Source: Polynucleobacter sp. UB-Tiil-W10 (GTDB taxonomy: Bacteria; Pseudomonadota; Gammaproteobacteria; Burkholderiales; Burkholderiaceae). Taken from it: a stretch of 64,000 nt of DNA. Shown here one piece after another: positions 2,132 through 62,856 of this stretch. The notes beneath the pieces were generated by a model. The model had not been told where the DNA came from. It ran no database searches and saw only the letters and a program-made list of their open reading frames with translations. The stretch lies in the NCBI RefSeq assembly GCF_018881605.1, contig NZ_JACVPZ010000001.1, forward strand, positions 1,612,001-1,676,000, written 5' to 3'. The position numbers and the translations under genes are program-made. Position 1 is the stretch's first letter; every line of letters begins with the position of its first letter.

Positions 2132-4828
2132 ATGGCAGCAGTTCCAGACCAAATACTAGGTAAACAGAATGCCCAGGACGCTGATCCGGGGGAGACTCAA
2201 GAATGGTTGCAGGCGCTCGATGGTGTTATTCGCAACGAGGGCCCCGAGAGAGCTGCCTATCTGATTGATCAACAAATTTCTCATGCGCGTGTAAACGGAG
2301 TAGTGCAGCCTTTCCATGCGGAGACGCCTTACATCAATACTATTCCCGTTGAAAACCAAGCGCGTTTACCTGGTGATCAAAACGTAGAGCATCGCATTCG
2401 TTCTTACACTCGCTGGAATGCGATGGCGATGGTTCTGCGCGCCAACAAAGATACGAACGTTGGCGGACACATTTCTTCATTCCAGTCAGCGGCTACTTTG
2501 TATGACGTTGGCTTTAACCATTTCTGGCATGCGCCGTCTCCTGAGCATGGCGGGGATCTTATATTTGTGCAGGGTCACTCAGCGCCAGGTGTCTACGCAC
2601 GTGCTTATATGCTGGGTCGCCTCGAAGAAGGACAACTCAATAACTTCCGCCAAGAAGTAGGCGGCAAAGGTATCTCCAGTTATCCACACCCTTGGTTGAT
2701 GCCTGACTTCTGGCAGTTCCCAACAGTATCGATGGGCTTAGGCCCCATCATGGCGATTTATCAAGCGCGTTTTATGAAGTACCTCACAGATCGTGGATTT
2801 ATTCAGGAGCAGAGTCGTAAAGTTTGGGCCTTCTTGGGTGACGGCGAAACCGACGAGCCAGAATCATTGGGTGCGATTGGTATGGCTGGTCGTGAAAAAC
2901 TCGATAACCTCATTTTTGTTATTAACTGTAACTTGCAGCGCTTAGATGGACCAGTGCGCGGTAACGGAAAAATTATTCAAGAACTTGAAGGTGAGTTCCG
3001 TGGCGCCGGTTGGAATGTGATCAAGGTCGTTTGGGGCGGTCAGTGGGATGCATTATTTGCGCGCGATAAGAAGGGCATCTTGATGCAACGCCTGGGCGAG
3101 ATCGTCGATGGTCAGTACCAGACTATGAAGTCTAAGAATGGCGCCTATGTTCGCGAGATCGTCTTTAATACACCAGAGTTAAAAGCTCTTGTGAATGACT
3201 GGAGTGATGATGAGATCTGGCAACTCAACCGTGGTGGACATGACCCTCATAAAGTCTTTGCAGCCTTCCATGCTGCTGTGAATACCAAAGATCAACCAAC
3301 TGTCATCTTGGCCCACACCATTAAGGGTTACGGCATGGGCGGCTCTGGTGAGGCAATGAATATTGCTCACCAAGCGAAGAAGATGAACGATGACGACGTT
3401 CGTCGCTTCCGTGATCGCTTTGAGATCCCAGTAAAGGATGAGCAATTAGACGAAATGCCTTTGGTGAAGTTTGCTGAAGGTAGTCCTGAGTTGGAATACA
3501 TGAAGGCGCGTCGTCAAGAGTTAGGTGGCTATCTGCCTCAGCGTCGCATGAAGGCAGAAAGTTTGCCTGTGCCCGCCTTAGACGTTTTTGCCCCATTGCT
3601 CGAAGCGACGTCAGAAGGTCGTGAGATCTCTACCACTATGGCATTTGTGCGCATGCTTAATACAGTAGTGCGCGATAAGGTCCTCGGTAAGCGCGTGGTT
3701 CCGATTGTTCCGGATGAGTCGCGAACTTTTGGCATGGAAGGCATGTTCCGCCAATTGGGTATTTGGAATCAATTGGGTCAGCTTTACACACCAGAAGATC
3801 ACGATCAATTGATGTTCTATAAAGAGGATAAGACCGGTCAAATTCTGCAAGAGGGAATTAACGAAGCGGGCGGTATGTGCGACTGGATCGCAGCAGCGAC
3901 TTCATACTCTACGCACGGTGTGCCGATGTTGCCTTTCTATATCTTCTACTCCATGTTTGGTTTCCAGCGTATAGGTGACTTAGCTTGGGCGGCAGGGGAT
4001 ATGCGTAGCCGCGGTTTCTTGCTGGGTGGTACTGCTGGTAGGACTACTTTGAACGGCGAAGGCTTGCAACATGAAGATGGCCATAGTCATCTGTGGAGTG
4101 GTGCAGTTCCAAACTGCATCAGCTATGACCCAACCTTCTCATTTGAATTAGCAGTTGTGATTCAGGATGGTATGCGTCGCATGTTGGAAGTGCAGGAAGA
4201 CGTTTACTACTACGTCACCTTGATGAATGAAAACTATTCGCATCCAGCAATGCCTAAGGGTGCGGCGCAAGACATCATTAAGGGTATGTATAAGCTCAAG
4301 TCAGTTGGTGACGATAAAGCAAAGTTGCGCGTACAACTCTTGGGTTCAGGAACCATCTTCCGCGAAGTGATTGAGGCGGCAGAAATTCTCCATAAAGACT
4401 GGGGTATTGCTTCAGACTTATGGGGTTGCCCAAGTTTTACAGAACTTGGCCGTGATTGGACTGCGGTACACCGTAGCAATCTCTTAAATCCGACTGCCGC
4501 ACCCGCTTTATCTCATGTAGAGAATTGTCTTAAAGATACTGTCGGCCCTGTGATTGCGGCAACTGACTATGTCCGCTTGTTTGCTGAGCAGATTCGTCCA
4601 GCCATTCAGCATATGGGTCGCCGTTATGAAGTCTTGGGTACTGATGGCTTTGGTCGTTCCGATACCCGCGAAAAACTCCGTGACTTCTTTGAGGTGGATC
4701 GTCGTTGGGTAGTTCTGACTGCCCTGAGGTCATTGGTTGATTCTGGCCAGCTTGATCGCTCTAAGCTGGCAGAGGCGATTAAGAAATATGACATCGACAC
4801 TACTAAACCAAACCCAATGACGGTTTGA
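2132..4828 (+). CDS. aceE: Pyruvate dehydrogenase E1 component (homodimeric type)
   Basis: This 898-residue protein has the usual length of the homodimeric AceE found in proteobacteria. It decarboxylates pyruvate with thiamine diphosphate and passes the acetyl group to the lipoyl domain of E2. The TPP/Mg-binding motif is visible as GDGETDEPES at about residue 236, followed by NCNLQRLDGPVRGN near 264. It is the first gene of an aceE-aceF-lpd operon, with only 15 nt to aceF, and is preceded by a GGAG ribosome binding site. The acceptor partners encoded next to it make the assignment firm. Confidence 0.98.
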   Translation: MAAVPDQILGKQNAQDADPGETQEWLQALDGVIRNEGPERAAYLIDQQISHARVNGVVQPFHAETPYINTIPVENQARLPGDQNVEHRIRSYTRWNAMAMVLRANKDTNVGGHISSFQSAATLYDVGFNHFWHAPSPEHGGDLIFVQGHSAPGVYARAYMLGRLEEGQLNNFRQEVGGKGISSYPHPWLMPDFWQFPTVSMGLGPIMAIYQARFMKYLTDRGFIQEQSRKVWAFLGDGETDEPESLGAIGMAGREKLDNLIFVINCNLQRLDGPVRGNGKIIQELEGEFRGAGWNVIKVVWGGQWDALFARDKKGILMQRLGEIVDGQYQTMKSKNGAYVREIVFNTPELKALVNDWSDDEIWQLNRGGHDPHKVFAAFHAAVNTKDQPTVILAHTIKGYGMGGSGEAMNIAHQAKKMNDDDVRRFRDRFEIPVKDEQLDEMPLVKFAEGSPELEYMKARRQELGGYLPQRRMKAESLPVPALDVFAPLLEATSEGREISTTMAFVRMLNTVVRDKVLGKRVVPIVPDESRTFGMEGMFRQLGIWNQLGQLYTPEDHDQLMFYKEDKTGQILQEGINEAGGMCDWIAAATSYSTHGVPMLPFYIFYSMFGFQRIGDLAWAAGDMRSRGFLLGGTAGRTTLNGEGLQHEDGHSHLWSGAVPNCISYDPTFSFELAVVIQDGMRRMLEVQEDVYYYVTLMNENYSHPAMPKGAAQDIIKGMYKLKSVGDDKAKLRVQLLGSGTIFREVIEAAEILHKDWGIASDLWGCPSFTELGRDWTAVHRSNLLNPTAAPALSHVENCLKDTVGPVIAATDYVRLFAEQIRPAIQHMGRRYEVLGTDGFGRSDTREKLRDFFEVDRRWVVLTALRSLVDSGQLDRSKLAEAIKKYDIDTTKPNPMTV

Positions 4829-50092: not shown

Positions 50093-51199
50093 TTAGTCGG
50101 TAAAGCGACGAGGATCATTAATCGGTCGCAATGGCATGATATGAATCTTGCTACCATCAATTTCAAGATGAGTACTTTTGCCAACATCCAAGCAGAGTCT
50201 CTTGACCTCTGCAGCAGAGGCTTCCCAGGTAATTGCATGTCCACCATCAAGCGTGCGAAGTTGAATAACCGCGATCTGACCTAAAGCACTGATTTGTTCA
50301 ACAGTCGCTGAGAGTGAAGTAGTGCTGGAGCTGAGATGCAGACTTAAACCTTCCGCCGGAACAACCCAGGCAACAGGTGTATTTGGTGGAATTTTGCCTT
50401 TGTCCGCTACATTAAAGATGCGTTGACTGCCTTGCCAGCTTAACTTTCCAGCAGTAAACACCCCCTCAAACTTATTGCTAATGCCCACCAGTTCTGCAAC
50501 CCGTGAGTTTCTAGGTCTTTCAAATAGCACCTGTGGTGGAGCGGTCTGTAGCCCTACACCTTGGTCAATCACAGTGATGCGATCAGCCAATAAATCTGCC
50601 TCCCTTAGATCATGAGTGACAAGCAAAATGGGAATATTTAAATCTTTGCGAAGTTCAGCCAACGTCTTATAAAGACCTTGGCGCGTAGGTGCATCAATCG
50701 CAGAGAAGGGCTCATCAAGCAATAGTACTTTTGGTGATCGTGCCAGCGCTCTGGCGAGCGCAACCCGCTGTTGTTGGCCGCCTGAGAGTTGGTTAGGCAT
50801 GCGGTTGGCTAAGTCATTAATTCCCATGCGATCAAGCCATTCTTTGGCACGAGCTTTGCGATCAGATGGCCTTTGGATATTGTTGTACAAAGGGATGCAC
50901 ACATTCTCAAGCGCTGTGAGATGGGGGAATAGGGCGTACTGCTGAAATAGAAATCCACATGAGCGATTGGCAGGGCTTAAGGAGGTAGTGACTCCGCTGG
51001 CATTATTTGCTTCAAACCATAACTTGCCATCACATTCAATTTTTCCAGTTTCGGCATCGTTTAATCCAGCGATTGTTCTCAGGGCAGTTGTCTTGCCGCT
51101 ACCGGAAGGGCCCACTAAGGCATGCAATTCTCCGGGAATGCATTCAATCTGAAGCTGCAAGGGATTCGGACTAGTCTGGAAGAGCTTTACTTTAAGCAT
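50093..51199 (-). CDS. modC: Molybdate-type ABC transporter ATP-binding protein
   Basis: A 368-residue ATPase. Walker A GPSGSGKTT is near residue 33, the signature LSGGQQQRVALARAL near 140, and Walker B VLLLDEPFSAID just after. The C-terminal third holds a TOBE/MOP-like region, as in ModC. It overlaps modB by 1 bp (TAATG). Sulfate and molybdate importers are similar, so the substrate is inferred from ModB resemblance and from the adjacent molybdoenzyme gene soxC. No modA is present nearby. Confidence 0.85.
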   Translation of the reverse strand: MLKVKLFQTSPNPLQLQIECIPGELHALVGPSGSGKTTALRTIAGLNDAETGKIECDGKLWFEANNASGVTTSLSPANRSCGFLFQQYALFPHLTALENVCIPLYNNIQRPSDRKARAKEWLDRMGINDLANRMPNQLSGGQQQRVALARALARSPKVLLLDEPFSAIDAPTRQGLYKTLAELRKDLNIPILLVTHDLREADLLADRITVIDQGVGLQTAPPQVLFERPRNSRVAELVGISNKFEGVFTAGKLSWQGSQRIFNVADKGKIPPNTPVAWVVPAEGLSLHLSSSTTSLSATVEQISALGQIAVIQLRTLDGGHAITWEASAAEVKRLCLDVGKSTHLEIDGSKIHIMPLRPINDPRRFTD

Positions 51200-51852
51200 T
51201 AGCTACTCCATTGTTTAGATCGCGATGGGTTGCGACTAAAGACGCCATAGGAAAGTGCAATTGCCACAAGAGAAGTGCAAAGTAAAAGTAACGAAAGCGC
51301 GCCAGCACCAGAGGTATCAAAACTTTGTACCTTGTCATATATAGCAATCGATACTGTTTTGGTCTCGCCCGGAATGGCACCGCCAACCATGAGGATCACA
51401 CCAAATTCTCCTAGGGTATGCGCAAAAGTAAGAACGGCTGCGCTAGTGATGCCACGCCAAGCTAGGGGCAATTCAATCAGGCGAAAGATTTGCCATTTGG
51501 TCAGCCCGCTGACTTGGGCCGCTTCCCGAATTTCAGGATTAATAGCCTCAAAAGCACGTTGTATTGGTTGAATAGCAAATGGCAAGTTCACAATGAGGGA
51601 AGCAATGAGGATTCCCGTGAAAGAAAACACCAATGGTATCCCAAAGAGGCTTTTCCCTCCAAGACCCACTAGGAGGTAATAGCCCAAGACAGTAGGAGGG
51701 AGGACTAGGGGTAAGGCAAGCGCTGCCTCGACCCATGACCTGCTTTTGCCCATACTTTGGAGCGAATGCGCTACCCAAATTCCAAAGGGGATGATCAGGA
51801 CCAAGGTCCATATGGCCAGCCTTAACGAGAGAAGTAGCGCTTCAATATCCAT
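51199..51852 (-). CDS. modB: Molybdate-type ABC transporter permease
   Basis: A 217-residue permease with five to six membrane segments. ALPLVLPPTVLGYYLLVG is characteristic of ModB, and the EAA loop reads EAAQVSGLTKWQIFRLIELP. The ATG at 51852 is used rather than a TTG one codon earlier. It diverges from the arsR-type gene across a 98-bp control region. The binding protein expected to deliver substrate must be encoded elsewhere. Confidence 0.86.
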   Translation of the reverse strand: MDIEALLLSLRLAIWTLVLIIPFGIWVAHSLQSMGKSRSWVEAALALPLVLPPTVLGYYLLVGLGGKSLFGIPLVFSFTGILIASLIVNLPFAIQPIQRAFEAINPEIREAAQVSGLTKWQIFRLIELPLAWRGITSAAVLTFAHTLGEFGVILMVGGAIPGETKTVSIAIYDKVQSFDTSGAGALSLLLLCTSLVAIALSYGVFSRNPSRSKQWSS

Positions 51853-51861
51853 CAAACGATT

Positions 51862-51875
51862 GTATCTTTAGATAC
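51862..51875. repeat. Small palindrome before modB
   Basis: GTATCTTTAGATAC has perfect 6-bp arms around a 2-nt centre and lies 10-23 bp upstream of the modB start. It is a candidate operator or 5'-leader hairpin; no known site is recognised. Confidence 0.4.
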
Positions 51876-51904
51876 CGTCAGGGTAACTCACTATATGAAC
51901 TTGG

Positions 51905-51933
51905 TTGGCATAAGCGTTAAATATGCATATATA
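51905..51933 (+). promoter_or_regulatory. Predicted promoter of the soxR-soxCD operon
   Basis: TTGGCA (51905-51910) and TATATA (51928-51933) are 17 nt apart, a near-consensus pair. The start of transcription would be near 51940, giving a leader of only about 11 nt before the ATG at 51951, where no Shine-Dalgarno site is seen. Confidence 0.6.
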
Positions 51934-51940
51934 CGCATAT
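51921..51940. promoter_or_regulatory. Near-perfect 20-bp palindrome, candidate ArsR-type operator
   Basis: ATATGCATATATACGCATAT equals its own reverse complement at 18 of 20 positions. It covers the predicted -10 and transcription start of the regulator gene, the place expected for repressor binding. ArsR-family proteins bind AT-rich inverted repeats of about this size. Binding is inferred, not shown. Confidence 0.65.
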
Positions 51941-51950
51941 ATTTATATAA

Positions 51951-52295
51951 ATGAGCCTCATGAAAGCAAAAGTTCAAAAAGCAACAAAAAACTTATCTCC
52001 AAAACAGATGGAGAAGGTCTTTGCACACGTAGCCGCTTATTTCAATGTTCTTTCTGAGCCAGCGCGTTTACGCATCATGTATGCAGTTTGTAACGGTGAG
52101 AAATCCGTCTCTGAGGTTGTTGAGATGTGCGGTACAAGCCAGGCCAATGTATCAAGGCATTTATTAGCCCTTCACAAAGCCGGAATTTTAATGAGGCGAA
52201 AAGAAGGTGTAACGGTTTATTACTCAATTGCGGATAACGCAACGGTTGAGATGTGTCAGACAGTCTGCGCAAAGATTGCTGAAGGTATTTATTAG
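51951..52295 (+). CDS. soxR: ArsR-family regulator of the sox cluster (SoxR-like)
   Basis: A 114-residue winged-helix repressor. LSEPARLRIMYAVCNGEKSVSEV is the ArsR N-terminal half and TSQANVSRHLLALHKAGIL the recognition helix; RRKEGVTVYYSI is the wing. Cys residues occur in VCNGE, EMCGTS and MCQTVC. Sulfur-sensing ArsR proteins such as SoxR of Paracoccus and BigR act through Cys pairs, so sensing of sulfur species by thiol chemistry is plausible. It is 35 nt upstream of soxC. A second ATG at 51960 is possible. Confidence 0.85.
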   Translation: MSLMKAKVQKATKNLSPKQMEKVFAHVAAYFNVLSEPARLRIMYAVCNGEKSVSEVVEMCGTSQANVSRHLLALHKAGILMRRKEGVTVYYSIADNATVEMCQTVCAKIAEGIY

Positions 52296-52330: not shown

Positions 52331-53731
52331 ATGACTAAGAAGCAAATTGAATTGAGCGCTGAGGATATCGCTGCGGTTGAGAAGCCTGCCAATAGAGCTC
52401 GCTTAGTAAAGGCGCCGGAGCACTTTATTTCTCAGGAGTTGATCGCTGATATTAATGCAAATGGCCTTGATGAAGGTCGTCGCGGTTTTTTGCGTAAAGG
52501 CTTTCTTTCTGCCGTAGGTGGAGCTGCAGTTGGGTTGGCTGCCCCGATGGCTTTTGCTGCTGGAGAAGGCGATCCCGCCATTCTGGAGAAGCAAGAGTGG
52601 CAAACCACGCTTGGTAAGAACGTAGCCACCATGCCCTATGGTGTTCCTTCGATCTATGAATCGAATTTAATTCGCCGTGAATCACCTGGATTAACGCGTG
52701 TATCTGCAGCATCTGTTGCATTTACTCCATTACAGGGTTTGTTTGGCACCATTACTCCAAACGGTTTGCACTTTGAGCGTCATCACCAGGGTTGGTACAA
52801 CCTCAATCCTGAAACTCATCGCTTGATGGTGAACGGCATGGTCAAGAATGCCCGCGTATTCACGATGAACGACTTGATGAGACTGCCTTCTGTTTCTCGC
52901 ACCCACTTTATTGAGTGCGGCGCAAATACTGGCTTAGAGTGGGGTAACGTTGCAGTACCAACCGTGCAGTACACCCATGGCATGCTTTCATGCTGCGAAT
53001 TTACTGGCGTACCCCTCAAGGTATTGCTCGAAGAATGCGGCGCAGATTTGAAAAAAGGGAAGTTCTTGCTTGCTGAAGGTGGCGATGGCTCTGGCATGAC
53101 GCGCACGATCAATCTAGAAAGCTGTTTGGATGACACGATTGTTGCTTGGAGTATGAATGGCGAGATGTTACGCCCAGAAAACGGCTTCCCATTGCGCCTT
53201 GTAGTTCCGGGCGTGCAAGGCGTTAGCTGGGTTAAATGGTTACGTCGTTTGGAAGTGGGGGATATGCCCTGGAATGCGAAAGATGAAGCAGTTCACTACA
53301 TTGAGCTGATGCCAGATGGCATGCATCGTCAATATGCATCGATTCAAGAATGCAAATCGGTGATTACTACACCTTCTGGCGGTCAGCAATTGCTAGATAA
53401 AGGTTTCTATAACGTGAGTGGCATGGCTTGGTCTGGTCGCGGCAAGATTAAGCGCGTGGACGTTTCATTTGATGGCGGCAATAACTGGCGTACCGCTCGT
53501 TTAGAAACACCAATTCTGACCAAATCGATTACCCGCTTCAATATTGATTGGGTGTGGGATGGTTCGCCTGCAATATTGCAATCTAGGGCGGTCGATGACA
53601 CAGGCTATATACAACCTTCAATTAAGGTATTACGTGATTTGCGCGGTAATCGCTCGATCTATCACAACAATGCCATTCAGTCTTGGAAATTAGATTCAAA
53701 CGGCGAGGTGAGCAATGTACAAGTTGGATAA
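52331..53731 (+). CDS. soxC: Sulfite dehydrogenase molybdenum subunit SoxC
   Basis: A 466-residue molybdopterin enzyme of the sulfite oxidase family; with SoxD it oxidises the sulfane sulfur bound to SoxY. A Tat signal lies at about 50-78 (RRGFLRKGFLSAVGG), so it is exported folded. The Mo-ligating Cys is in HFIECGANTGLEWG (C196). A dimerisation domain follows near the C-terminus. Its 3' end overlaps soxD by 17 bp. Confidence 0.95.
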   Translation: MTKKQIELSAEDIAAVEKPANRARLVKAPEHFISQELIADINANGLDEGRRGFLRKGFLSAVGGAAVGLAAPMAFAAGEGDPAILEKQEWQTTLGKNVATMPYGVPSIYESNLIRRESPGLTRVSAASVAFTPLQGLFGTITPNGLHFERHHQGWYNLNPETHRLMVNGMVKNARVFTMNDLMRLPSVSRTHFIECGANTGLEWGNVAVPTVQYTHGMLSCCEFTGVPLKVLLEECGADLKKGKFLLAEGGDGSGMTRTINLESCLDDTIVAWSMNGEMLRPENGFPLRLVVPGVQGVSWVKWLRRLEVGDMPWNAKDEAVHYIELMPDGMHRQYASIQECKSVITTPSGGQQLLDKGFYNVSGMAWSGRGKIKRVDVSFDGGNNWRTARLETPILTKSITRFNIDWVWDGSPAILQSRAVDDTGYIQPSIKVLRDLRGNRSIYHNNAIQSWKLDSNGEVSNVQVG

Positions 53732-54803
53732 ATTATTTGCTCGTGTGGCCGTTGCAGGTTTAACGTTGCTATCAGTTCAACTGACTTGCGCACAAAATAT
53801 TCAGGGATCTGCAAAGTTTCCTGGCATTGGTCGTAATGCCACGCCCGCAGAGATCATTGCTTGGGACATTGATGTGCGTCCAGACTTTAAGGGCCTGCCA
53901 AAAGGATCTGGCTCGGTGGAGCAAGGTCAAGCCATTTGGGAATCGAAATGCGCTAGCTGTCATGGAGTCTTCGGCGAATCGAATGAGATCTTCACGCCAA
54001 TCGCTGGCGGAACAACTGCTGATGATGTGAAAACGGGTAGGGTCGCCTCTTTGGGTGACCGTAAACAGCCTCAGCGCACTACTTTGATGAAGGTGCCAAC
54101 CGTATCTACTTTGTGGGACTACATCTATCGCGCCATGCCCTGGAATGCACCAAGATCCTTAACGCCGGATGATACTTATGCCCTAGTTGCCTTTATTTTG
54201 AGCTTAGGCGAAATTGTTCCGGATGATTTTGTGCTGAGCAATACCAATATTGCAGACGTGCAAAAGAAGATGCCCAATCGCAATGGTATGACGCGTAATC
54301 ATGGCTTTTGGAGTGTTAATGGCAAGCCAGATGTGAATGGCTCATCTTGCATGACCAACTGCGTCAAGTTCGTGCAAATTGGCTCCACGCTTCCAGATTT
54401 CGCTAGAAATGCCCACGGTAATATTGCAGAGCAAAATCGCTTGTATGGACCATATCGCGGTTCAGACTCCACTAAGCCACCAATTGCTAAGTTACCCGGT
54501 TCTACTGGTGAAGGTCTAGCGCATGCTGCCGATACCCATGCTGCCACCACTAAAGGTCCTGCGGCCCTATTTAAAAACGAGAACTGCTCTGCATGTCATG
54601 CTCCGAATGCCAAATTGGTTGGCCCATCTATCGCTGATATTGCGGCGAAATATAAAGGGCAGAGCGGGGCTCAAGAAAAGCTCATGGCTAAGGTCAAGAG
54701 CGGGGGTTCAGGGGTGTGGGGAGTGATTCCAATGCCGCCACAGTCACAGTTATCGGATGAGGACAGGGCGACCCTTGTGCGCTGGGTGCTCACCGGGCAA
54801 TAG
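53715..54803 (+). CDS. soxD: Diheme cytochrome c subunit SoxD
   Basis: A 362-residue periplasmic cytochrome, partner of SoxC. After a signal peptide (about 1-27) comes a first heme domain with CASCH (79-83), a middle part with a CMTNC Cys pair, and a second heme domain with CSACH (291-295). The C-terminal MPPQSQLSDED supplies a likely axial Met. The ATG follows GAGGTG within soxC, implying coupled translation. Confidence 0.94.
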   Translation: MYKLDKLFARVAVAGLTLLSVQLTCAQNIQGSAKFPGIGRNATPAEIIAWDIDVRPDFKGLPKGSGSVEQGQAIWESKCASCHGVFGESNEIFTPIAGGTTADDVKTGRVASLGDRKQPQRTTLMKVPTVSTLWDYIYRAMPWNAPRSLTPDDTYALVAFILSLGEIVPDDFVLSNTNIADVQKKMPNRNGMTRNHGFWSVNGKPDVNGSSCMTNCVKFVQIGSTLPDFARNAHGNIAEQNRLYGPYRGSDSTKPPIAKLPGSTGEGLAHAADTHAATTKGPAALFKNENCSACHAPNAKLVGPSIADIAAKYKGQSGAQEKLMAKVKSGGSGVWGVIPMPPQSQLSDEDRATLVRWVLTGQ

Positions 54804-54870
54804 GTTTACAGAAGGTTTTTTGAAATACCGCTATATTTGATACTAAGAGTAGATTATTAAAGGAGTTTTT

Positions 54871-55323
54871 ATGAATCAGCAGCGACGCAGTTTATTGAAA
54901 TATTCAGCCGTTTTCGGCTTAATGGCTTCTGCGGGTCTCATTAGCGTAGCCCAAGCCCAAGAGTGGAATAAAGCCGCTTTCGAAGGCAAGAGTCTGGATG
55001 ATGTGTTCAAGATTCTAGGTGCCGGTAGTCCAGACAAATCTGGCGCTGTTACTTTGAACGCTCCTGATATTGCAGAAAACGGTGCGGTTGTTCCCGTTGG
55101 AATTGTCACCACCCTCAAAGCGGAACAGATGGCTATCTTGGTTGAGAAAAACCCAAGTGCTCTAGCGGCGCAATTCTTTATTCCTTCTGGTACAGAGCCT
55201 TTCGTTACTACTCGTATCAAGATGGGTCAAACCTCCAACGTCTATGCCTTGGTAAAAGCCGATGGCAAATGGAGTATGGCTGTGAAGGAAGTAAAAGTGA
55301 CTTTGGGTGGTTGCGGCGGTTAA
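54871..55323 (+). CDS. soxY: Sulfur carrier protein SoxY
   Basis: A 150-residue carrier subunit. A Tat-type signal is at the N-terminus (RRSLLKYSAVFGLM). The protein ends in the conserved GGCGG, whose Cys148 carries the sulfur intermediates. It has a strong AGGAG ribosome binding site 6 nt before the ATG and a 67-bp gap from soxD. Confidence 0.97.
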   Translation: MNQQRRSLLKYSAVFGLMASAGLISVAQAQEWNKAAFEGKSLDDVFKILGAGSPDKSGAVTLNAPDIAENGAVVPVGIVTTLKAEQMAILVEKNPSALAAQFFIPSGTEPFVTTRIKMGQTSNVYALVKADGKWSMAVKEVKVTLGGCGG

Positions 55324-55379
55324 TCGTCCTCAATCCGAATAAAAACCATTAATTAATTACTAGATTACAAGAGGAACCT

Positions 55380-55688
55380 ATGTCTGATCCAATGCGCGTT
55401 AGAGCGGCCGAAAACGGTGGAATTGTGGATGTAAAAATTTTGATGAAGCATGATATGGAATCTGGTCAGCGTAAAGATGCTGCTGGCAAAACGATTCCTG
55501 CGTGGCACATCACCACGATCAATGTCAAAGCGAACGGTAAAGATGTTTTGAATGGTCAGTTTGGTCCAGCGGTTTCCAAGGATCCATTCTTGAATTTCAA
55601 ATACAAGGGCGCTAAAGGCGACAAAATTGTTGTGAACTGGATAGATAGTAAAGGTGACAAGCGCACCGACGAAGCAACTGCATCGTAA
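55380..55688 (+). CDS. soxZ: Thiosulfate oxidation carrier complex protein SoxZ
   Basis: A 102-residue Ig-like partner of SoxY. It has no signal peptide and no Cys, so it is expected to ride with Tat-exported SoxY into the periplasm. MRVRAAENGGIVDVKILMKHDMESG, here seen in its parts VDVKILMKHDMESG and IPAWHITTI, matches the family. It is 56 nt after soxY. Confidence 0.96.
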   Translation: MSDPMRVRAAENGGIVDVKILMKHDMESGQRKDAAGKTIPAWHITTINVKANGKDVLNGQFGPAVSKDPFLNFKYKGAKGDKIVVNWIDSKGDKRTDEATAS

Positions 55689-55744
55689 TTTGCTTGTTGA
55701 ATTATTAAATCTTTACCATCTCATGGGTTTTGAAAGGGTTGCAA

Positions 55745-56560
55745 ATGCAGCGTAAATTTACTTTAGGGTTAGCCTCAGGAATGATGGCTGCTTTATTAAC
55801 AGTCTCATTCTCTGTATCAGCGCAAAAAAGTGCGACAGACGATATTGCAAAATATCGCGAGATGATTGCTGATGGCAACCCTTCAGAACTTTATGAGGCA
55901 GCCGGTGAAGATCTTTGGAAAAAGCCTGCTGGACCCAAGAACGCTACTTTAGAGAAGTGTGATTTGGGACTGGGGCCAGGAGTGGTAAAGGGTGCAGCAG
56001 CGCAACTGCCACGTTATTTCAAAGACACAAATAAAGTTCAAGACCTCGAGTCTCGCTTGATGACTTGTATGCAGAAGCTTCAAGGTCGCGATCCACAAGA
56101 GATGGTTGATGCACCATTTCAAAAAGGTCCCAAGAAGGATATGGAGGCCATTGTTGCTTACGTGGTCACTTTATCTAAAGGCGACAAAATTCAAGTCAGC
56201 ACAGCGCACCCCAAAGAAAAAGAAATGTATGAGCTTGGTAAGCGCGCATTCTTTTTCCAAGGCGGACCAATGGACTTCTCATGCGCTTCTTGTCATGGCG
56301 AAGATGGAAAGCGTATTCGCTTACAAGATTTGCCAAACATTACAACTCAGAAGGGTGCAGCGATGGGTTGGGGTTACTGGCCTGCCTATCGCGTATCGAG
56401 CGGTCAGTTTTGGACAATGCAGCAACGTTTAAATGATTGCTATCGTCAGCAACGTTTCCCGTTCCCTATTTACGGATCTGATGTCACCATCGCTTTATCA
56501 ATGTATATGGCGAAGACTGCTAATGGTGGGACTGTAGAGACCCCTGGATTGAAGCGTTAA
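55745..56560 (+). CDS. soxA: SoxA, monoheme type
   Basis: A 271-residue c-type cytochrome subunit of SoxXA, which couples thiosulfate to the SoxY Cys. A signal peptide (about 1-27) is followed by a single CASCH heme site (180-184). The catalytic Cys ligand is C232 in NDCYRQQRFP. Two further Cys, C72 and C108, sit where diheme SoxA has its first heme and probably form a disulfide, as in known monoheme SoxA. The ATG at 55745 with AAAGGG upstream is chosen over a TTG at 55730. Confidence 0.95.
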   Translation: MQRKFTLGLASGMMAALLTVSFSVSAQKSATDDIAKYREMIADGNPSELYEAAGEDLWKKPAGPKNATLEKCDLGLGPGVVKGAAAQLPRYFKDTNKVQDLESRLMTCMQKLQGRDPQEMVDAPFQKGPKKDMEAIVAYVVTLSKGDKIQVSTAHPKEKEMYELGKRAFFFQGGPMDFSCASCHGEDGKRIRLQDLPNITTQKGAAMGWGYWPAYRVSSGQFWTMQQRLNDCYRQQRFPFPIYGSDVTIALSMYMAKTANGGTVETPGLKR

Positions 56561-56579
56561 GAGATAAGAGATAGAGATC

Positions 56580-57218
56580 ATGAAAATTACCCACATCAAA
56601 AAACTCTTAACAGTTTCTGGATTTATTCTAGCCACATGCCTCATGCAGAACGCAGCAGTGGCTCAACAAAAGAATGATCCCAAGTTCAACAAAATGATGA
56701 CTGACAGCTTTAGGGCTGACGGTATCGCAGGATTAGATCGCATTGTGCAAGACGAGACTCAAAAGTTTTGTTCCGACCCCGTGTTTGCTAATAGCAAACA
56801 AGGTGAAAAAATGCGTGAAAAGATTCAGAAGATGAATATGGACAGCATTAAGCAGCCATCTGATGGTAAGTACGTTGGCGACTGGAAGAAGGGTGAAGCC
56901 ATTGCGCAAAGCGGTCGCGGTGCCACTTGGACCGATAAGGCTGACACCGTCATTGGCGGAGGTTGTTATAACTGTCACCAGATTGATCCAAAAGAAATTT
57001 CTTATGGAAATATTGGCCCATCATTAACAGGTTATGGAAAGATGCGCGGCTACTCACAAGAAGTGGTGACCTATACCTGGAATCGTATTAATAATTCCAA
57101 GGCATACAACGCATGTAGCAATATGCCGCGCTTTGCACACTTCAAACTCTTAAATGAGCAACAGATTCAGGATGTCATGGCATTGCTGCTTGATCCTGCT
57201 TCACCAGTAAATCAATAA
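56580..57218 (+). CDS. soxX: SoxX cytochrome c
   Basis: A 212-residue monoheme subunit of SoxXA. A signal peptide (about 1-28) and a long N-terminal extension of about 90 residues precede the heme site CYNCH (129-133). GNIGPSLTGYG follows, and the distal Met is probably in SNMPRFAHFKLL. It is 19 nt after soxA and is followed by a hairpin terminator. Confidence 0.94.
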   Translation: MKITHIKKLLTVSGFILATCLMQNAAVAQQKNDPKFNKMMTDSFRADGIAGLDRIVQDETQKFCSDPVFANSKQGEKMREKIQKMNMDSIKQPSDGKYVGDWKKGEAIAQSGRGATWTDKADTVIGGGCYNCHQIDPKEISYGNIGPSLTGYGKMRGYSQEVVTYTWNRINNSKAYNACSNMPRFAHFKLLNEQQIQDVMALLLDPASPVNQ

Positions 57219-57226
57219 AGAAGCAA

Positions 57227-57250
57227 AAAACAGGCCGACAGGCCTGTTTT
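57227..57250 (+). terminator. Intrinsic terminator or attenuator between soxX and soxB
   Basis: AAAACAGGCC (57227-57236) pairs perfectly with GGCCTGTTTT (57241-57250) around GACA, and a further T follows. It lies inside the sox gene series, 16 bp before the soxB start, so it either ends the upstream transcript partly or balances expression. Confidence 0.85.
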
Positions 57251-57265
57251 TATAAGGGGAATTTT

Positions 57266-58996
57266 ATGTCTTTAAGTCGCCGCGATTTTTTGCAGGCTTT
57301 AGCGATCGCCTCTGCAGGCGGGATGAGCTTGCAGTCAAATTTTGTGAATGCGCAAAGTACTGCGCAAAAATTTTATGACTTACCTAAATTTGGTAATGTG
57401 CACTTTCTGCATTTCACAGACTGCCATGCTCAGCTACTACCAATTTATTTCCGTGAGCCTAATGTAAATCTAGGTATCGGCGCTCAAGAAGGTAAAACGC
57501 CGCACTTAGTTGGCGAATATTTCTTAAAAGCGAATGGCATTGCACCGGGTACACGTGATGCTCACGCTTTTACGTATTTGGATTACGTTGCAGCAGCCCA
57601 AAACTACGGCAAGATGGGTGGTTTTGCCCATCTGGCTACATTGATTAAGCAAATGAAGGCAAATCGTCCTGGCGCCTTATTACTTGATGGTGGGGATACC
57701 TGGCAAGGTTCTGGCACGGCGCTTTGGACCAATGGCCAAGACATGGTCGATGCTGCTCTTGCATTGGGCGTAGATGTGATGACTCCACACTGGGAAATGA
57801 CTCTCGGGGAGAAGCGTGTCATGGAAATCGTCAATGGTGACTTCAAGGGAAAAGTTTCCTTTATAGCCCAAAATATTAAGACGGCAGACTTTGGGGATAT
57901 GGTCTTTAACCCATACGTTATGAAGGTACAGAACGGCATTCAGGTTGCCATCATTGGTCAGGCCTTCCCATACACACCAATTGCAAATCCTCGTTACTTC
58001 ACTCCTGATTGGACCTTTGGTATTCAAGAAGAGAATATGCAAAAGACGATTGATGAAGTGAGATCAAAGGGCGCTAAAGTAGTAGTGCTCCTATCTCACA
58101 ACGGCATGGATGTGGACCTGAAGATGGCCTCTCGCGTACGAGGTTTGGATGCAATCTTGGGCGGACATACCCATGATGGAGTGCCTATTCCAGTGAAGGT
58201 CAAGAATGCTGGTGGCGTTACGCTGGTTACCAATGCTGGATCCAATAGCAAGTTCTTGGGTGTGCTCGACTTTGATGTCAAGGGTGGAAAGCCAGTGGAT
58301 TTCCGCTACAAGCTTTTCCCAATTTTCTCTAATATGATTCCAGCAGATCCAACAATGAATAAGTTGATCGCTAAAGTCAGAGCTCCGTATGAAGCCAAGC
58401 TCAATGAGAAGTTAGCAACTACAGAGGGTCTCTTGTATCGCCGTGGTAACTTTAACGGTAGCTTTGATCAACTCATCCTTGATGGATTGATGGCGCAGAA
58501 GAATGCGGAGATTGCATTCTCGCCAGGCTTCCGCTGGGGAACCAGTCTATTGCCGGGTCAAGCGATTACACGCGAAAATCTCTTGGATCAAACGGCCATT
58601 ACCTACCCATACACCACTGTTACTAATATGAGTGGTGAAACAATCAAAACGATTCTGGAAGACGTGGCTGATAACTTGTTCAACCCAGATCCTTACTACC
58701 AGCAGGGTGGCGATATGGTCCGCGTCGGTGGAATGCAATACACAATCGATCCAGCGCAATCTGCAGGTAAACGAATTACTGATATGCGTCTGAATGGCAA
58801 ACCTATTGCAGCAAGCAAGACCTATAAGGTCGCAGGCTGGGCTCCAGTAAGCGAAGAGGCAAAAAACGCAGGTGGGGAAGCAATCTGGGATGTGATGGAG
58901 CGTCACTTGCGCGATGTCAAAGTCGTGAAAGCGGTTAAGCTTAACGAGCCGATTATTAAAGGCGTTGCCAATAACCCTGGTATGGCCCCAATTTAA
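57266..58996 (+). CDS. soxB: Thiosulfohydrolase SoxB
   Basis: A 576-residue dimanganese hydrolase that releases sulfate from the SoxY-bound thiosulfonate. A Tat signal is present (SRRDFLQALAIASAGG). Metal-binding motifs of the 5'-nucleotidase family are visible: LHFTDCHAQLLP, LDGGDTWQGSG, LLSHNGMDVD and LGGHTHDGVP. The start codon is preceded by AAGGGGA. It may be transcribed by read-through or from its own promoter near the hairpin. Confidence 0.97.
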   Translation: MSLSRRDFLQALAIASAGGMSLQSNFVNAQSTAQKFYDLPKFGNVHFLHFTDCHAQLLPIYFREPNVNLGIGAQEGKTPHLVGEYFLKANGIAPGTRDAHAFTYLDYVAAAQNYGKMGGFAHLATLIKQMKANRPGALLLDGGDTWQGSGTALWTNGQDMVDAALALGVDVMTPHWEMTLGEKRVMEIVNGDFKGKVSFIAQNIKTADFGDMVFNPYVMKVQNGIQVAIIGQAFPYTPIANPRYFTPDWTFGIQEENMQKTIDEVRSKGAKVVVLLSHNGMDVDLKMASRVRGLDAILGGHTHDGVPIPVKVKNAGGVTLVTNAGSNSKFLGVLDFDVKGGKPVDFRYKLFPIFSNMIPADPTMNKLIAKVRAPYEAKLNEKLATTEGLLYRRGNFNGSFDQLILDGLMAQKNAEIAFSPGFRWGTSLLPGQAITRENLLDQTAITYPYTTVTNMSGETIKTILEDVADNLFNPDPYYQQGGDMVRVGGMQYTIDPAQSAGKRITDMRLNGKPIAASKTYKVAGWAPVSEEAKNAGGEAIWDVMERHLRDVKVVKAVKLNEPIIKGVANNPGMAPI

Positions 58997-59029: not shown

Positions 59030-59467
59030 ATGAAAAAACTACTTTCTATCATTACAGTTGTGGCCATAGCGTTTGGATTTTGCTCTACCGCTTCAGCTCA
59101 GCCTGCTGGCAATACCAAGGTGGTTTATCACATTGATGATGCAGAAACTCAGGGTCTAAAAGGCCTGCGCAATATTCGCAATCATTTGGATACTTCTCCC
59201 GATACCATCATTATTGTTGTAACTCATGCTAATGGTGTTGATATGTTGATGGAAGGTGCCAAAGATAAGAAAAACAATGTGGAATATGCGCCATTGGTTG
59301 GGGCACTCAAATCTCGAGGTGTGAAATTTGAGGTGTGTGAGATCACTTTAAAGAATCGTAACTTGAAAAAAGATCAGTTCACGCTGGATGCGGATTTCAC
59401 CCCATCAGGTGTGGTACGTGTAGCTGACCTGCAATATAAAGATGGTTTTGCCTACATCAAGCCTTAA
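59030..59467 (+). CDS. Periplasmic DsrE-family protein
   Basis: A 145-residue protein with a signal peptide (about 1-24, ending ASAQ). The rest resembles DsrE/DsrF-like folds: KVVYHIDDAETQGLKGLRN, then IIVVTHANGVDMLM and KSRGVKFEVCEITLKNRNL, where C103 is at the usual reactive-Cys position. Many DsrE proteins carry persulfides, so handling of sulfur intermediates next to SoxB is a reasonable inference. It is 33 nt after soxB. Confidence 0.8.
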   Translation: MKKLLSIITVVAIAFGFCSTASAQPAGNTKVVYHIDDAETQGLKGLRNIRNHLDTSPDTIIIVVTHANGVDMLMEGAKDKKNNVEYAPLVGALKSRGVKFEVCEITLKNRNLKKDQFTLDADFTPSGVVRVADLQYKDGFAYIKP

Positions 59468-59477
59468 GCAATCCAGC

Positions 59478-60431
59478 ATGCAATGCTTGAAGAGTCTGAC
59501 GGGGATCCTTTTGGGATCCCTTGTATTTTTGAGTTCAGCTTTTGGGCAGGCAAAGCCTGCTGATCCAGTTCAGCTTAAACCCATCCAAGTAGCGCCTCAT
59601 ACTTATTTTGTGCGGGGCTTTCCAGAGCTAGGGAGTAGTACAAATCAAAACTTTATCTCGAATGCTGGGTTTGTCGTAACACCTGGTGGAGTAGTGGTGG
59701 TTGATGCCCTAGGCTCGCCTATTCTTGCGCAAAAGTTGATTGCTGAAATTCAGAAAATTACTTCGCAAAAAATTGTTGCCATCATCGTCAGTCACTATCA
59801 CGCCGATCATGTTTATGGTTTGCAGGAATTTAAAAAGATTGGCGCAAAGATTTATGCGCAAGGAGAGGGGCGAAATTATCTTTCCTCAGAAACAGCAAAG
59901 CAGCGCTTGATTGCCTCCAGAATTGATTTTGCTCCTTGGGTAAATGCAAATACAAGACTCATTTCTGCTGATGTATGGATTGATCAAAAATCGAAATTGA
60001 CAATTGGCGGGATTGATTTCTTGATCAGCAGGGTGGGGCCTGCTCATGCACCCGAGGATCTCATGGTGTATGTCCCTTCGGAGAGGGTGCTCTTTGCAGG
60101 TGATCTCGTATTCAGAGGACGCATTCCATTTGTTGGAAATGCGGATAGCAAAGGTTGGCTAGTAGCTCTAGATGAAATCGAAAAGTTAAATCCGAATATC
60201 GTGATCCCTGGCCATGGTAATTATTCGGTTAAGCCAACTGAGGATATTGTTTTTACTCGGAACTATTTGAAGTATTTGCGTGAATCCATGTCCAAAGCGG
60301 CTATTAATATGGATCCGTTCGAGGATGCTTATAAGCAGGCTGATTGGTCGGAATATGAGGGAATGCCTCTATTTAGGGCGGCTAATCGTATGAATGCCTA
60401 TAACGTCTACCTCTCTATTCAGGCTGAGTAA
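59478..60431 (+). CDS. SoxH-like MBL-fold metallo-hydrolase
   Basis: A 317-residue secreted metallo-beta-lactamase-fold protein. A signal peptide (about 1-24) is followed by the zinc motif SHYHADHVYGLQEF, a later PAHAPEDLMVYVPSERVLFAGD and VIPGHGNYS. It resembles SoxH and the quinoprotein-relay hydrolases; the substrate of SoxH is not firmly known. The ATG at 59478, 10 nt after the DsrE-like stop, is used. Confidence 0.85.
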   Translation: MQCLKSLTGILLGSLVFLSSAFGQAKPADPVQLKPIQVAPHTYFVRGFPELGSSTNQNFISNAGFVVTPGGVVVVDALGSPILAQKLIAEIQKITSQKIVAIIVSHYHADHVYGLQEFKKIGAKIYAQGEGRNYLSSETAKQRLIASRIDFAPWVNANTRLISADVWIDQKSKLTIGGIDFLISRVGPAHAPEDLMVYVPSERVLFAGDLVFRGRIPFVGNADSKGWLVALDEIEKLNPNIVIPGHGNYSVKPTEDIVFTRNYLKYLRESMSKAAINMDPFEDAYKQADWSEYEGMPLFRAANRMNAYNVYLSIQAE

Positions 60432-60489
60432 GGCAAAGTCGGCTATTGGGCCTTAAAATAGAGGATTAATGCTAAATCCTTGATTTGTA

Positions 60490-60807
60490 ATGAAAATGAT
60501 TTCCCTCCAATCTATTGCTGCAATCTTATTAAGTGCGCTAATGAGCGCGCCAGCGATTGCTGCCCCGGATTTGGCAAATGGTAAGGTCATTGATCAGCAA
60601 AAGTGTTACGCCTGCCATGCCAAGAAAAGTGGTTTTAGTAATGGCGATATGATTTACACCCGCTCAGACGGTAAGGTTAAAACCTTCGCTGATTTAAAGA
60701 AGATGGTTGCCCTTTGTAATACGGAACTCCGTCTCGATTTGTTCCCGGAAGATGAAGCAGACGTTGCTGCTTTTCTTAATCAACAATTTTATAAATTTAA
60801 ACCTTAA
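60490..60807 (+). CDS. Small monoheme cytochrome c
   Basis: A 105-residue periplasmic cytochrome with a signal peptide (about 1-24, ending AIAA) and one heme site CYACH (39-43). No Met is placed clearly as distal ligand. CNTELRLDLFPEDEADVAAFL near the C-terminus, taken as CNTELRLD plus DEADVAAFL, resembles the SHP class, in which an Asn can be the sixth ligand. It could accept electrons from SoxXA/SoxCD. The specific role is not known. Confidence 0.82.
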   Translation: MKMISLQSIAAILLSALMSAPAIAAPDLANGKVIDQQKCYACHAKKSGFSNGDMIYTRSDGKVKTFADLKKMVALCNTELRLDLFPEDEADVAAFLNQQFYKFKP

Positions 60808-60827
60808 TTTTTCAAGATACAGTCGCT

Positions 60828-61949
60828 ATGGATGTTGTTGATATTAGTTCTTTAAGTAAGTTAGTCCTTTGGGCCACTTTTGCCATTACCTTTTTCTTGG
60901 GTGCGGTCATGCAAAAGACTGGATTTTGTAGCATGGGGGCAGTTTCTGATGTCTTCATCATGTCCAGCTGGGATCGTTTAAAGCAATGGTTCTTGGCCAT
61001 TGGCGTTGCTATTATTGGCTTTACTTTAATGTCTTATTTTGGGGTCATTGATCCCTTAAAAAGCTTATATACCGGCAGTAAATTTTTATGGCTCTCTACT
61101 GCTGTGGGAAGTATCTTGTTTGGCTTCGGCATGGTTTTGGCATCAGGGTGCGGCAGTAAAACACTCATTCGTATCGGCGGCGGCAATTTAAAGTCTATCG
61201 TTGTATTTATGGTGCTGGGTTTAACGGCTTACATGACGATGCGCGGTTTCTTAGGGGTTGTTCGCATCAATACTCTAGATACTTTCTTTATTGCTTTCAA
61301 TACTCCACAAGACCTGCCTAGTCTTTTAAGTGCACCTTTGGGTATTGCACGTCCTGATCTTCATTTGGCTCTAGGCTTGCTCATTGGCTCTGCGTTTATT
61401 GCATACGCCTTAATGAGTAAAGCATTTTGGACTGCTGAAAATGTATTTGCAGGCATTGCTGTTGGTTTGGCGATCTGTGCCGTATGGTGGGTATCTGGAA
61501 ATCTCGGCTTTGTTGCTGAAGATCCCAATACTTTAGAAGAGATATTTTTAGTAACGAACTCTGGACGTATGGAGAGCTTATCTTTTGTAGCCCCTTATGC
61601 CTATTCGTTAGACTGGCTCATGATGTATAGCGATACCTCTAAAGTATTAACTGTCGGCATCATGGCTGTGTTGGGAATGATTTTGGGATCAGCCGTGATC
61701 TCTATTGCAACAAAATCGTTCCGCTGGGAATCTTTTCGTAATACTGAAGACACTGCAAATCATTTGGTCGGCGCTGCATTAATGGGCTTTGGCGGCGTCA
61801 CCGCCTTAGGTTGTACAGTAGGGCAAGGTTTGAGTGGCATCTCAACGTTAGCTCTTGGTTCCTTACTGGCCTTACCGGGATTTATTTTTGGAGCTTATTT
61901 AGGTTTGCGTTATCTACAAGTTCGTCTTGCTCCAAATCCTTGCAGTTAA
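60828..61949 (+). CDS. YeeE/YedE family sulfur transporter, long form
   Basis: A 373-residue membrane protein with about ten spans, equal to two YeeE/YedE (DUF395) repeats. Each repeat has its conserved Cys: ASGCGSKTLIRIGGG near residue 105 and LGCTVGQGLSG near 325. YeeE of E. coli-type bacteria transports thiosulfate through a relay of such Cys. It is 20 nt after the cytochrome gene and fits thiosulfate uptake or sulfur export for the Sox system. Confidence 0.88.
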   Translation: MDVVDISSLSKLVLWATFAITFFLGAVMQKTGFCSMGAVSDVFIMSSWDRLKQWFLAIGVAIIGFTLMSYFGVIDPLKSLYTGSKFLWLSTAVGSILFGFGMVLASGCGSKTLIRIGGGNLKSIVVFMVLGLTAYMTMRGFLGVVRINTLDTFFIAFNTPQDLPSLLSAPLGIARPDLHLALGLLIGSAFIAYALMSKAFWTAENVFAGIAVGLAICAVWWVSGNLGFVAEDPNTLEEIFLVTNSGRMESLSFVAPYAYSLDWLMMYSDTSKVLTVGIMAVLGMILGSAVISIATKSFRWESFRNTEDTANHLVGAALMGFGGVTALGCTVGQGLSGISTLALGSLLALPGFIFGAYLGLRYLQVRLAPNPCS

Positions 61950-61973
61950 TTTTAAAAATTGATAGATTAAATA

Positions 61974-62411
61974 ATGCAAATTGATTGGATATCTTTTACC
62001 CCATTGCCTTCACTCCTTGGTGGGATGATCCTTGGGGTAGCTGCAGCTCTTTATGTATTGCTTCATGGGCGTATTTTAGGAATTAGCGGAATTGTTTCTG
62101 GTTTGCTGCATCCTCAATTGAGTGATTCAGCATGGCGAGTTAGCTTGGTTTTGGGTTTAGTCTCCGCACCTTTTTTTGCCGCACTTTTTTTTGGAATATT
62201 CCCAGTCGTAGAAATTGATTCAAATTGGTTTGCGATTGTGATTGCCGGTCTTCTAGTTGGCTTTGGCGCTCAATATGGATCAGGTTGCACTAGTGGTCAT
62301 GGCATCTGTGGGCTTTCGCGTTTGTCTCCCCGATCACTAGTGGCTACTCTATCTTTTATGGGTGCAGGCTTTCTGATGGTTTTTATTCTTCGCCATTTGA
62401 TCGGAGGCTAA
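61974..62411 (+). CDS. YeeE/YedE family protein, half-size, first of pair
   Basis: A 145-residue membrane protein with four to five spans, a single YeeE/YedE unit. The conserved Cys motif is QYGSGCTSGHGICGLSRLS. Half-size proteins of this kind occur as adjacent pairs (PmpA/PmpB type) thought to form one transporter. It is 1 nt before the next gene. Confidence 0.87.
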   Translation: MQIDWISFTPLPSLLGGMILGVAAALYVLLHGRILGISGIVSGLLHPQLSDSAWRVSLVLGLVSAPFFAALFFGIFPVVEIDSNWFAIVIAGLLVGFGAQYGSGCTSGHGICGLSRLSPRSLVATLSFMGAGFLMVFILRHLIGG

Positions 62412-62412
62412 G

Positions 62413-62856
62413 ATGAAAAAACATTTTGGTCTTGTTAGTCAATACGCTATTGGCGTCCTTTTTGGTTGGGGTTTAATCATCTCGGGCATGAGCAATCCTC
62501 AGAAGATCTTGGGATTTTTGGATTTGACCGGTCTCTGGGATCCTTCCTTGATGTTTGTCATGTTGGGTGCTGTGATTGTGGGTCTTGGGGGTTTTTATGT
62601 CGTTAGCAAAAGAACGCAAGCCTTTTTTGGCGGCGCCTTGCATATCCCAAATCGCCGAGACATTACCAAGCCCCTCATTATTGGCAGCTTGATTTTTGGA
62701 GCGGGCTGGGGAATTGCTGGGTTTTGTCCAGGTCCAGCACTGGTTGCTTTGGGCGCTGGCCACCTTAAGGCCTTGGTATTTATTATTGCCATGCTTGCTG
62801 GGATGGAGATTTGCGAGCGCTTCTTTACTGCCCATAGAAACAAGCCAAACCCCTGA
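62413..62856 (+). CDS. YeeE/YedE family protein, half-size, second of pair
   Basis: A 147-residue membrane protein with four spans. It has GWGLIISGMSNPQKILGFLD near the start and AGFCPGPALVALG, the Cys motif of the DUF6691 half, near residue 105. Together with the preceding gene it should build a two-part sulfur transporter. The locus thus encodes one long and one split transporter of the same superfamily. Confidence 0.87.
   Translation: MKKHFGLVSQYAIGVLFGWGLIISGMSNPQKILGFLDLTGLWDPSLMFVMLGAVIVGLGGFYVVSKRTQAFFGGALHIPNRRDITKPLIIGSLIFGAGWGIAGFCPGPALVALGAGHLKALVFIIAMLAGMEICERFFTAHRNKPNP

Follow-up and report, generated by a model that had tools for sequence, protein, structure and literature searches.

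What controls the sulfur oxidation (sox) genes of this Polynucleobacter is the question raised by a near-palindrome that precedes them in the window, i.e., the whole stretch of 64,000 nucleotides analysed here. The palindrome is followed, in this order and all on the plus strand, by a gene of ArsR type, soxC, a cytochrome c gene in the position of soxD, soxY, soxZ, soxA, soxX, and soxB. The sox genes span 52331..58996 (NCBIfam, Pfam); soxC, Y, Z, A, X, and B are NCBIfam equivalogs above cut-off, and the soxD-position gene was assigned by its cytochrome c domains. Genes for a DsrE-like protein, a metallo-beta-lactamase-fold protein, a small ORF lacking a Pfam match, two Sulf_transp proteins of the YeeE/YedE type (PF04143), and a DUF6691 protein follow at 59030..62856 (plus strand, Pfam), presumably on the same transcript as sox. 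The divergent neighbour is modB, a molybdate permease gene on the minus strand (51199..51852, TIGR02141 above cut-off). In the ORF list, modB begins at TTG 51855 (51199-51855), a start at ATG 51852 being more likely; the ABC ATPase gene beside it is modC by position, scoring 181.5 against the modC model, below the cut-off of 285. The SOX genes of a Polynucleobacter strain have been described, and the word regulator is absent from the accessible part of that paper (PMC3308952). Among the open-access matches listed, titles and the beginnings of abstracts gave no recognisable description of this regulator or operator, and the operator wording had no match in the accessible part of PMC12423496.

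We propose that the 20 bp at 51921..51940 (ATATGCATATATACGCATAT) very probably serve as operator for the ArsR-type repressor whose gene follows directly, which would make the sox run autoregulated. The site belongs to neither strand in particular; as the sequence-only reading had it, it is a 20-bp near-palindrome in which 18 of 20 bases are symmetric, and its arms, ATATGC-N8-GCATAT, are conserved. We scored 124 distinct sox-linked upstream regions by their matches out of 12 to these arms and found 12/12 in 83 regions, 11/12 in 30, 10/12 in 8, and 9/12 in 3. The motif lies ahead of the same ArsR-type gene and soxC in Polynucleobacter, Pandoraea, Cupriavidus, and a groundwater betaproteobacterial MAG. 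The reversed pattern, used as a control, reached at most 11/12 (16/124 regions) and at least 10 in 93/124, high scores that stem from the alternating, AT-rich make-up of the site. One shuffle per region gave a maximum of 10/12 (7/124 regions); when the 78 closest regions were shuffled a second time, 11/12 appeared once. Full matches extend to distant relatives: 48 of 78 regions score 12/12 at an arsR identity of at least 70%, 12 of 23 at 55-69%, and all 23 at 54% or below (Pandoraea, Cupriavidus, and others). Among 12 distinct regions with no soxC in reach, one scored 12/12, one 10/12, and none of the others more than 9; the one full match may come from a locus at a contig end. In five of the more distant genus loci (L077, L078, L081-L083), a weaker operator is preceded, at a distance of 8 bases, by an extra ATATGC half-site, which looks like the replacement of one site by two overlapping ones.

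Genome-wide scans describe how closely the motif follows the regulator gene. The 2.04-Mb genome itself has a single exact copy of the motif, the one at 51921-51940, and five more places with one mismatch. Of 101 genomes of the genus, 40 carry the exact motif, at 42 places in total (one for the reversed motif), 35 of which sit 10-65 bases before an arsR match; of the remaining seven, three are beside cydAB (two genomes) and four are single places elsewhere. At a search threshold of E 1e-15, arsR was found in 64 of the 101 genus genomes and in 47 of a sample of 200 family genomes that also covered the genus. The exact motif was present in 3 of the 37 arsR-less genus genomes and absent from 27 of the 64 that bear arsR, in which the sites, where seen, score 11/12 or less. 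The palindrome was absent before modB in all eight genomes that have modB and lack arsR (best score 9/12). Regarding the genes behind it, soxC comes after arsR in 88 of 94 loci, a set with some duplicates of one and the same place; the remaining six comprise L013, which ends with its contig, and five more distant ArsR genes (L002, L088-L090, L092). In four of the latter, L088-L090 and L092, the gene is not sox-linked and no motif precedes it (best score 8/12). Seven of 369 genomes of the class, our own included, match the ArsR alignment (A1) at 1e-20, and one of the six others (G512) has sox genes nearby; no exact or 11/12 motif occurred in the roughly 10 kb fetched around these six relatives outside the family, and L206 has a 10/12 motif before an arsR-type gene. 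Relatives in named genomes were taken from the best 80 of 280 matches. As far as seen, a switch of this form appears in Burkholderiaceae and betaproteobacterial MAGs. A conserved palindrome directly before the regulator gene, by which we recognise an autoregulated ArsR operon, is thus found here, and the autoregulated layout that had been claimed appears well supported by the comparison, given a motif tied to arsR across genera and rare elsewhere.

The claim that the first gene encodes an ArsR-type protein was confirmed by PF01022 (49.5 bits, cut-off 22) and NF033788 (76.3, cut-off 55); the protein combines a winged-helix HTH_5 domain with the ArsR fold, which places it in the ArsR/SmtB repressor family. 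Its structure model has a mean pLDDT of 90.4, and SqrR ranks first among solved relatives in both the sequence and the fold comparison (taking the top two places in the fold list), followed closely by SmtB and HlyU. The recognition helix, SQANVSRHL (52137..52163, plus strand), is helical in the model and conserved in A1, where S, Q, N, S, R, and the last L are invariant and H nearly so. Three Cys are conserved: Cys47 at the end of helix 2 (codon 52089..52091, plus strand; Cys44 when counted from Met4), and Cys102 and Cys106, spaced C-x3-C in helix 5 (codons 52254..52268, plus strand). All three are invariant in the 17 chosen diverse rows of A1. In a redundant set of 93 relatives (L002 left out), Cys102 and Cys106 are kept in 93, L088-L090 and L092 included, Cys47 in 89, and Cys60 in 62; the four exceptions at Cys47 are the same L088-L090 and L092, which carry Arg and are not sox-linked. 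The gene lies beside sox genes and is therefore a sox-linked ArsR-type regulator, a SoxR in the broad sense.

From the sox context and the fold match to SqrR, it is plausible, and more likely than not, that the regulator senses sulfur, but the Cys pair that defines the known sulfane-sulfur sensors is absent. We consider it unlikely that the operator assignment is right and the inducer a different one, the Cys trio binding a thiophilic metal or metalloid or sensing oxidation. Such an inducer would suit the three conserved Cys with two as C-x3-C in helix 5, the missing persulfide-sensing pair, and the NCBIfam assignment to a metalloregulator subfamily, and some As(III) sensors have three Cys, all in helix 5, according to the accessible part of PMC10509353. 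However, the constant partners of the gene are sulfur oxidation genes, and the three-Cys arrangement of these As(III) sensors was not found here, only two of the three lying in helix 5 and one ending helix 2.

The sequence-only reading had also placed a strong promoter over the palindrome. Both of its hexamers do exist, TTGGCA at 51905-51910 and TATATA at 51928-51933 on the plus strand with a spacer of N17, and one relative (L007) shows TTGACA at the corresponding place. We nevertheless regard it as quite improbable that they form the promoter, with a start at about 51940, an 11-nt leader, and the repressor over the -10. The hexamers match at just 5/6 and 4/6 positions, with the T missing at position 6 of the -10, so that "strong" overstates them, and a promoter scan with an obligatory final T in the -10 does not list the pair. 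At the place of TTGGCA (±1 base), a hexamer with at least 4/6 matches to TTGACA was found in only 11 of 77 distinct regions (arsR identity of at least 70%), per-base conservation is 0.01-0.18 bits at 51905-51909 and 0.62 at 51910, and TATATA varies in relatives while the arms stay. On this conservation we rejected the pair as promoter; TTGGCA is probably no promoter element.

A different element, overlooked so far, is conserved upstream. From 140 modB-arsR gaps, 90 of them distinct, we aligned 85 (61-179 bases long) and obtained three conserved blocks, at 51859-51867, 51880-51896, and 51914-51942; TTGGCA falls between the second and the third, where the sequence varies. The sequence AGGGTAACTCACTATA (51880-51895) is kept in 77/77 of the same distinct regions, as described by the regular expression AGGGT-N4-C-N-CTAT. 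A start site within the palindrome is not supported. Extended by one base, it forms the putative promoter-like element of arsR-sox, AGGGTAACTCACTATAT (51880..51896, plus strand), whose TATAT (51892-51896) is likely the -10 of the transcript; the operator would then lie just downstream of the transcript start. The distance between the AGGGT block and the operator is nearly constant in Polynucleobacter, and in the Cupriavidus-like loci L049 and L091 the two abut.

Which blocks belong to which gene can be judged from loci that lack arsR or modB. The AGGGT element is missing before modB in 8/8 arsR-less genomes, whereas ATTGTA of the block at 51859-51867 persists there in 5/8. Among 14 loci viewed, 10 of them lacking an adjacent modB, the regular expression was matched in L074, L075, and L152 (L074 and L152 apparently being one contig), and a GGGT-led version was recognised by eye in 12, two Pandoraea loci lacking it. 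Hence the first block belongs to modB and the other two to arsR-sox. We therefore discarded ATTGTATTG (51859-51867) as a -35 of sox; on the minus strand, its TACAAT (51859..51864) is the probable -10 of modB, about 7 bases before the ATG at 51852, and modB may have a very short leader or none. A role of the element at 51880-51896 in the modB promoter (TATAGT on the minus strand) was likewise rejected, because the element is kept at arsR-sox without an adjacent modB and missing at modB without arsR. A sigma-54 site in it was set aside, since by eye it has no GC at the -12 place.

The arsR-type gene (51960..52295, plus strand) probably starts at Met4 of an ORF that opens at 51951. Close-relative protein matches mostly start at residue 3 or 4; in L006, L011, and L014 the codon equivalent to Met4 (51960) is immediately preceded by an in-frame stop, several relatives have GTG or TTG at that position, and another group starts two codons further upstream. 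Some relatives carry an SD-like AGG or AGAGG before the start, where the window has just a weak GAG at 51953-51955. The claimed 11-nt leader with no ribosome binding site, counted from the ATG at 51951, is doubtful because the start is probably 51960.

Palindromes related to the operator also occur at a distance from arsR. In two genomes of the genus, 20/20 palindromes (ATATGCGTATATACGCATAT) flank or directly follow cydAB (3894-3913 and 6469-6488 of L197; 4999-5018 of L198); cydA was identified by Pfam, and cydB and the adjoining YeeE-like genes by eye. In L239 (reverse strand), arrays of ATATGC/GCATAT-like half-sites precede an Fnr/Crp-like gene (2141-2860) and a cytochrome c gene (1100-1444), which has a gene for an FccB-like flavoprotein (by eye) behind it. 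These arrays may be further targets of the regulator; before the Fnr/Crp-like gene the reversed control scored equally high, and for the candidates of a wider regulon behind cydB it also reached 10 or 11. In the own genome, no 11/12 motif was found near cydAB. Another protein could use such sites, considering the exact copies in arsR-less genomes and beside cydAB. It is highly improbable, in our view, that the palindrome itself serves some other DNA-binding protein, e.g., a global regulator, with arsR merely adjacent. Perfect copies beside cydAB, the arrays before the Fnr/Crp-like and cytochrome c genes, and the sites in arsR-less G007 and G034, which are similar to the wider-regulon candidates, would fit such a protein; yet the motif and arsR are jointly absent at all eight modB loci tested, the link to arsR holds in other genera lacking an adjacent modB, and the arrays score about the same as the reversed control.

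The symmetry of 18/20 by itself is weak evidence in DNA this AT-rich, since such a palindrome also arose in 86 of 5000 dinucleotide-shuffled versions of the 95-bp modB-arsR gap, and the window has five where 60 shuffles average 2.1; the conservation of the arms across relatives and genera nevertheless puts the site far beyond chance and leaves an accidental palindrome within an AT-rich gap with practically no probability. Computed as DNA, the palindrome has no hairpin advantage (z -0.61), which rules out a hairpin and points to a DNA site and not a folded strand.

From the conserved operator, the arsR-sox link, the conserved element, and the Cys trio brought out by the comparison, we infer an ArsR-type switch of the following kind. 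A repressor dimer would sit on ATATGC-N8-GCATAT, with one recognition helix per half-site, and shut off its own gene together with the downstream sox run. The element at 51880-51896 probably provides the promoter, and an operator just past the start site would form an obstacle to RNA polymerase. When reduced sulfur is available, sulfane sulfur could enter the cytoplasm, perhaps via the YeeE/YedE-type transporters of the run, and modify Cys47, Cys102, and Cys106, upon which the repressor would leave the DNA. The locus offers a precise candidate operator and sensor site, through which it may be learned how a common group of freshwater bacteria might decide on thiosulfate oxidation.

A close counterpart is SoxR of Hyphomicrobium, described in the accessible part of PMC10451225 as a sulfane-sulfur-responsive ArsR-type repressor of sox genes that uses Cys50 and Cys116, a pair common to SqrR, a second SoxR, BigR, and sHdrR. 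The same part of that source has SoxR of Hyphomicrobium, Paracoccus, and Pseudaminobacter as ArsR-type and encoded with sox, as here, and binding sox intergenic DNA. Equivalents of Cys50 and Cys116 are nonetheless absent here and a different Cys trio is present, as judged through the alignment with SqrR. More broadly, the accessible part of PMC10509353 places all known persulfide sensors of the ArsR family in one network cluster (SSN cluster 4), with the Cys pair in helices 2 and 5. In the ungapped SqrR alignment, our regulator lacks the pair by which SqrR, BigR, and SoxR are recognised, and the two positions of the group formed by SqrR, BigR, YgaV, and HlyU are Tyr44 and Ala110. We take the sensing pair of SqrR to be Cys41 and Cys107, a numbering that agrees with the aligned chain if one extra residue is allowed for. 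Relative to this pair, Cys47 is shifted by three residues and Cys106 by four, which is about one helix turn. The curated BigR model scored 46.9 bits, below its cut-off of 155. The second NCBIfam model for the regulator, the ArsR/SmtB-type TsoR (NF045707), likewise remained below cut-off (53.7 bits, cut-off 115), and no paper under that name was found among the matches listed. Metalloid sensors with Cys in helix 5 (accessible part of PMC10509353; AntR, PDB 6uvu) share the helix-5 Cys, and AntR is among the matches by fold; they differ from our regulator, which has a sox neighbourhood and a third Cys ending helix 2.

Similarity to SqrR of Rhodobacter capsulatus (PDB 6o8k-6o8o) extends to the operator, which is likewise palindromic with 8 bases between the half-sites. 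For SqrR, the accessible part of PMC9774250 gives a deduced site of ATTC-N8-GAAT, so that one base is changed per half-site, ATTC there versus ATGC here. Specifically, 51853-51960 holds no exact copy of the SqrR site, and ATGC-N8-GCAT at 51923 matches it in 6/8 bases with the same gap. The recognition helix also differs in the alignment, RQAAVSQQL in SqrR versus SQANVSRHL here, and the change of half-site would fit the change of helix. The sox clusters of Polynucleobacter, Pandoraea, and Cupriavidus may hold a separate Burkholderiaceae class of ArsR-type sulfane-sulfur sensors, with its own Cys trio and a re-specified operator, so that sensing arose or was rewired twice; we would place this reading just short of evenly balanced. 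Overall, the regulator appears, by comparison, to resemble SoxR and SqrR in position and operator layout without their Cys pair, which makes it a test case for how many ways the ArsR fold senses sulfur and for the joint change of an operator half-site and its recognition helix.
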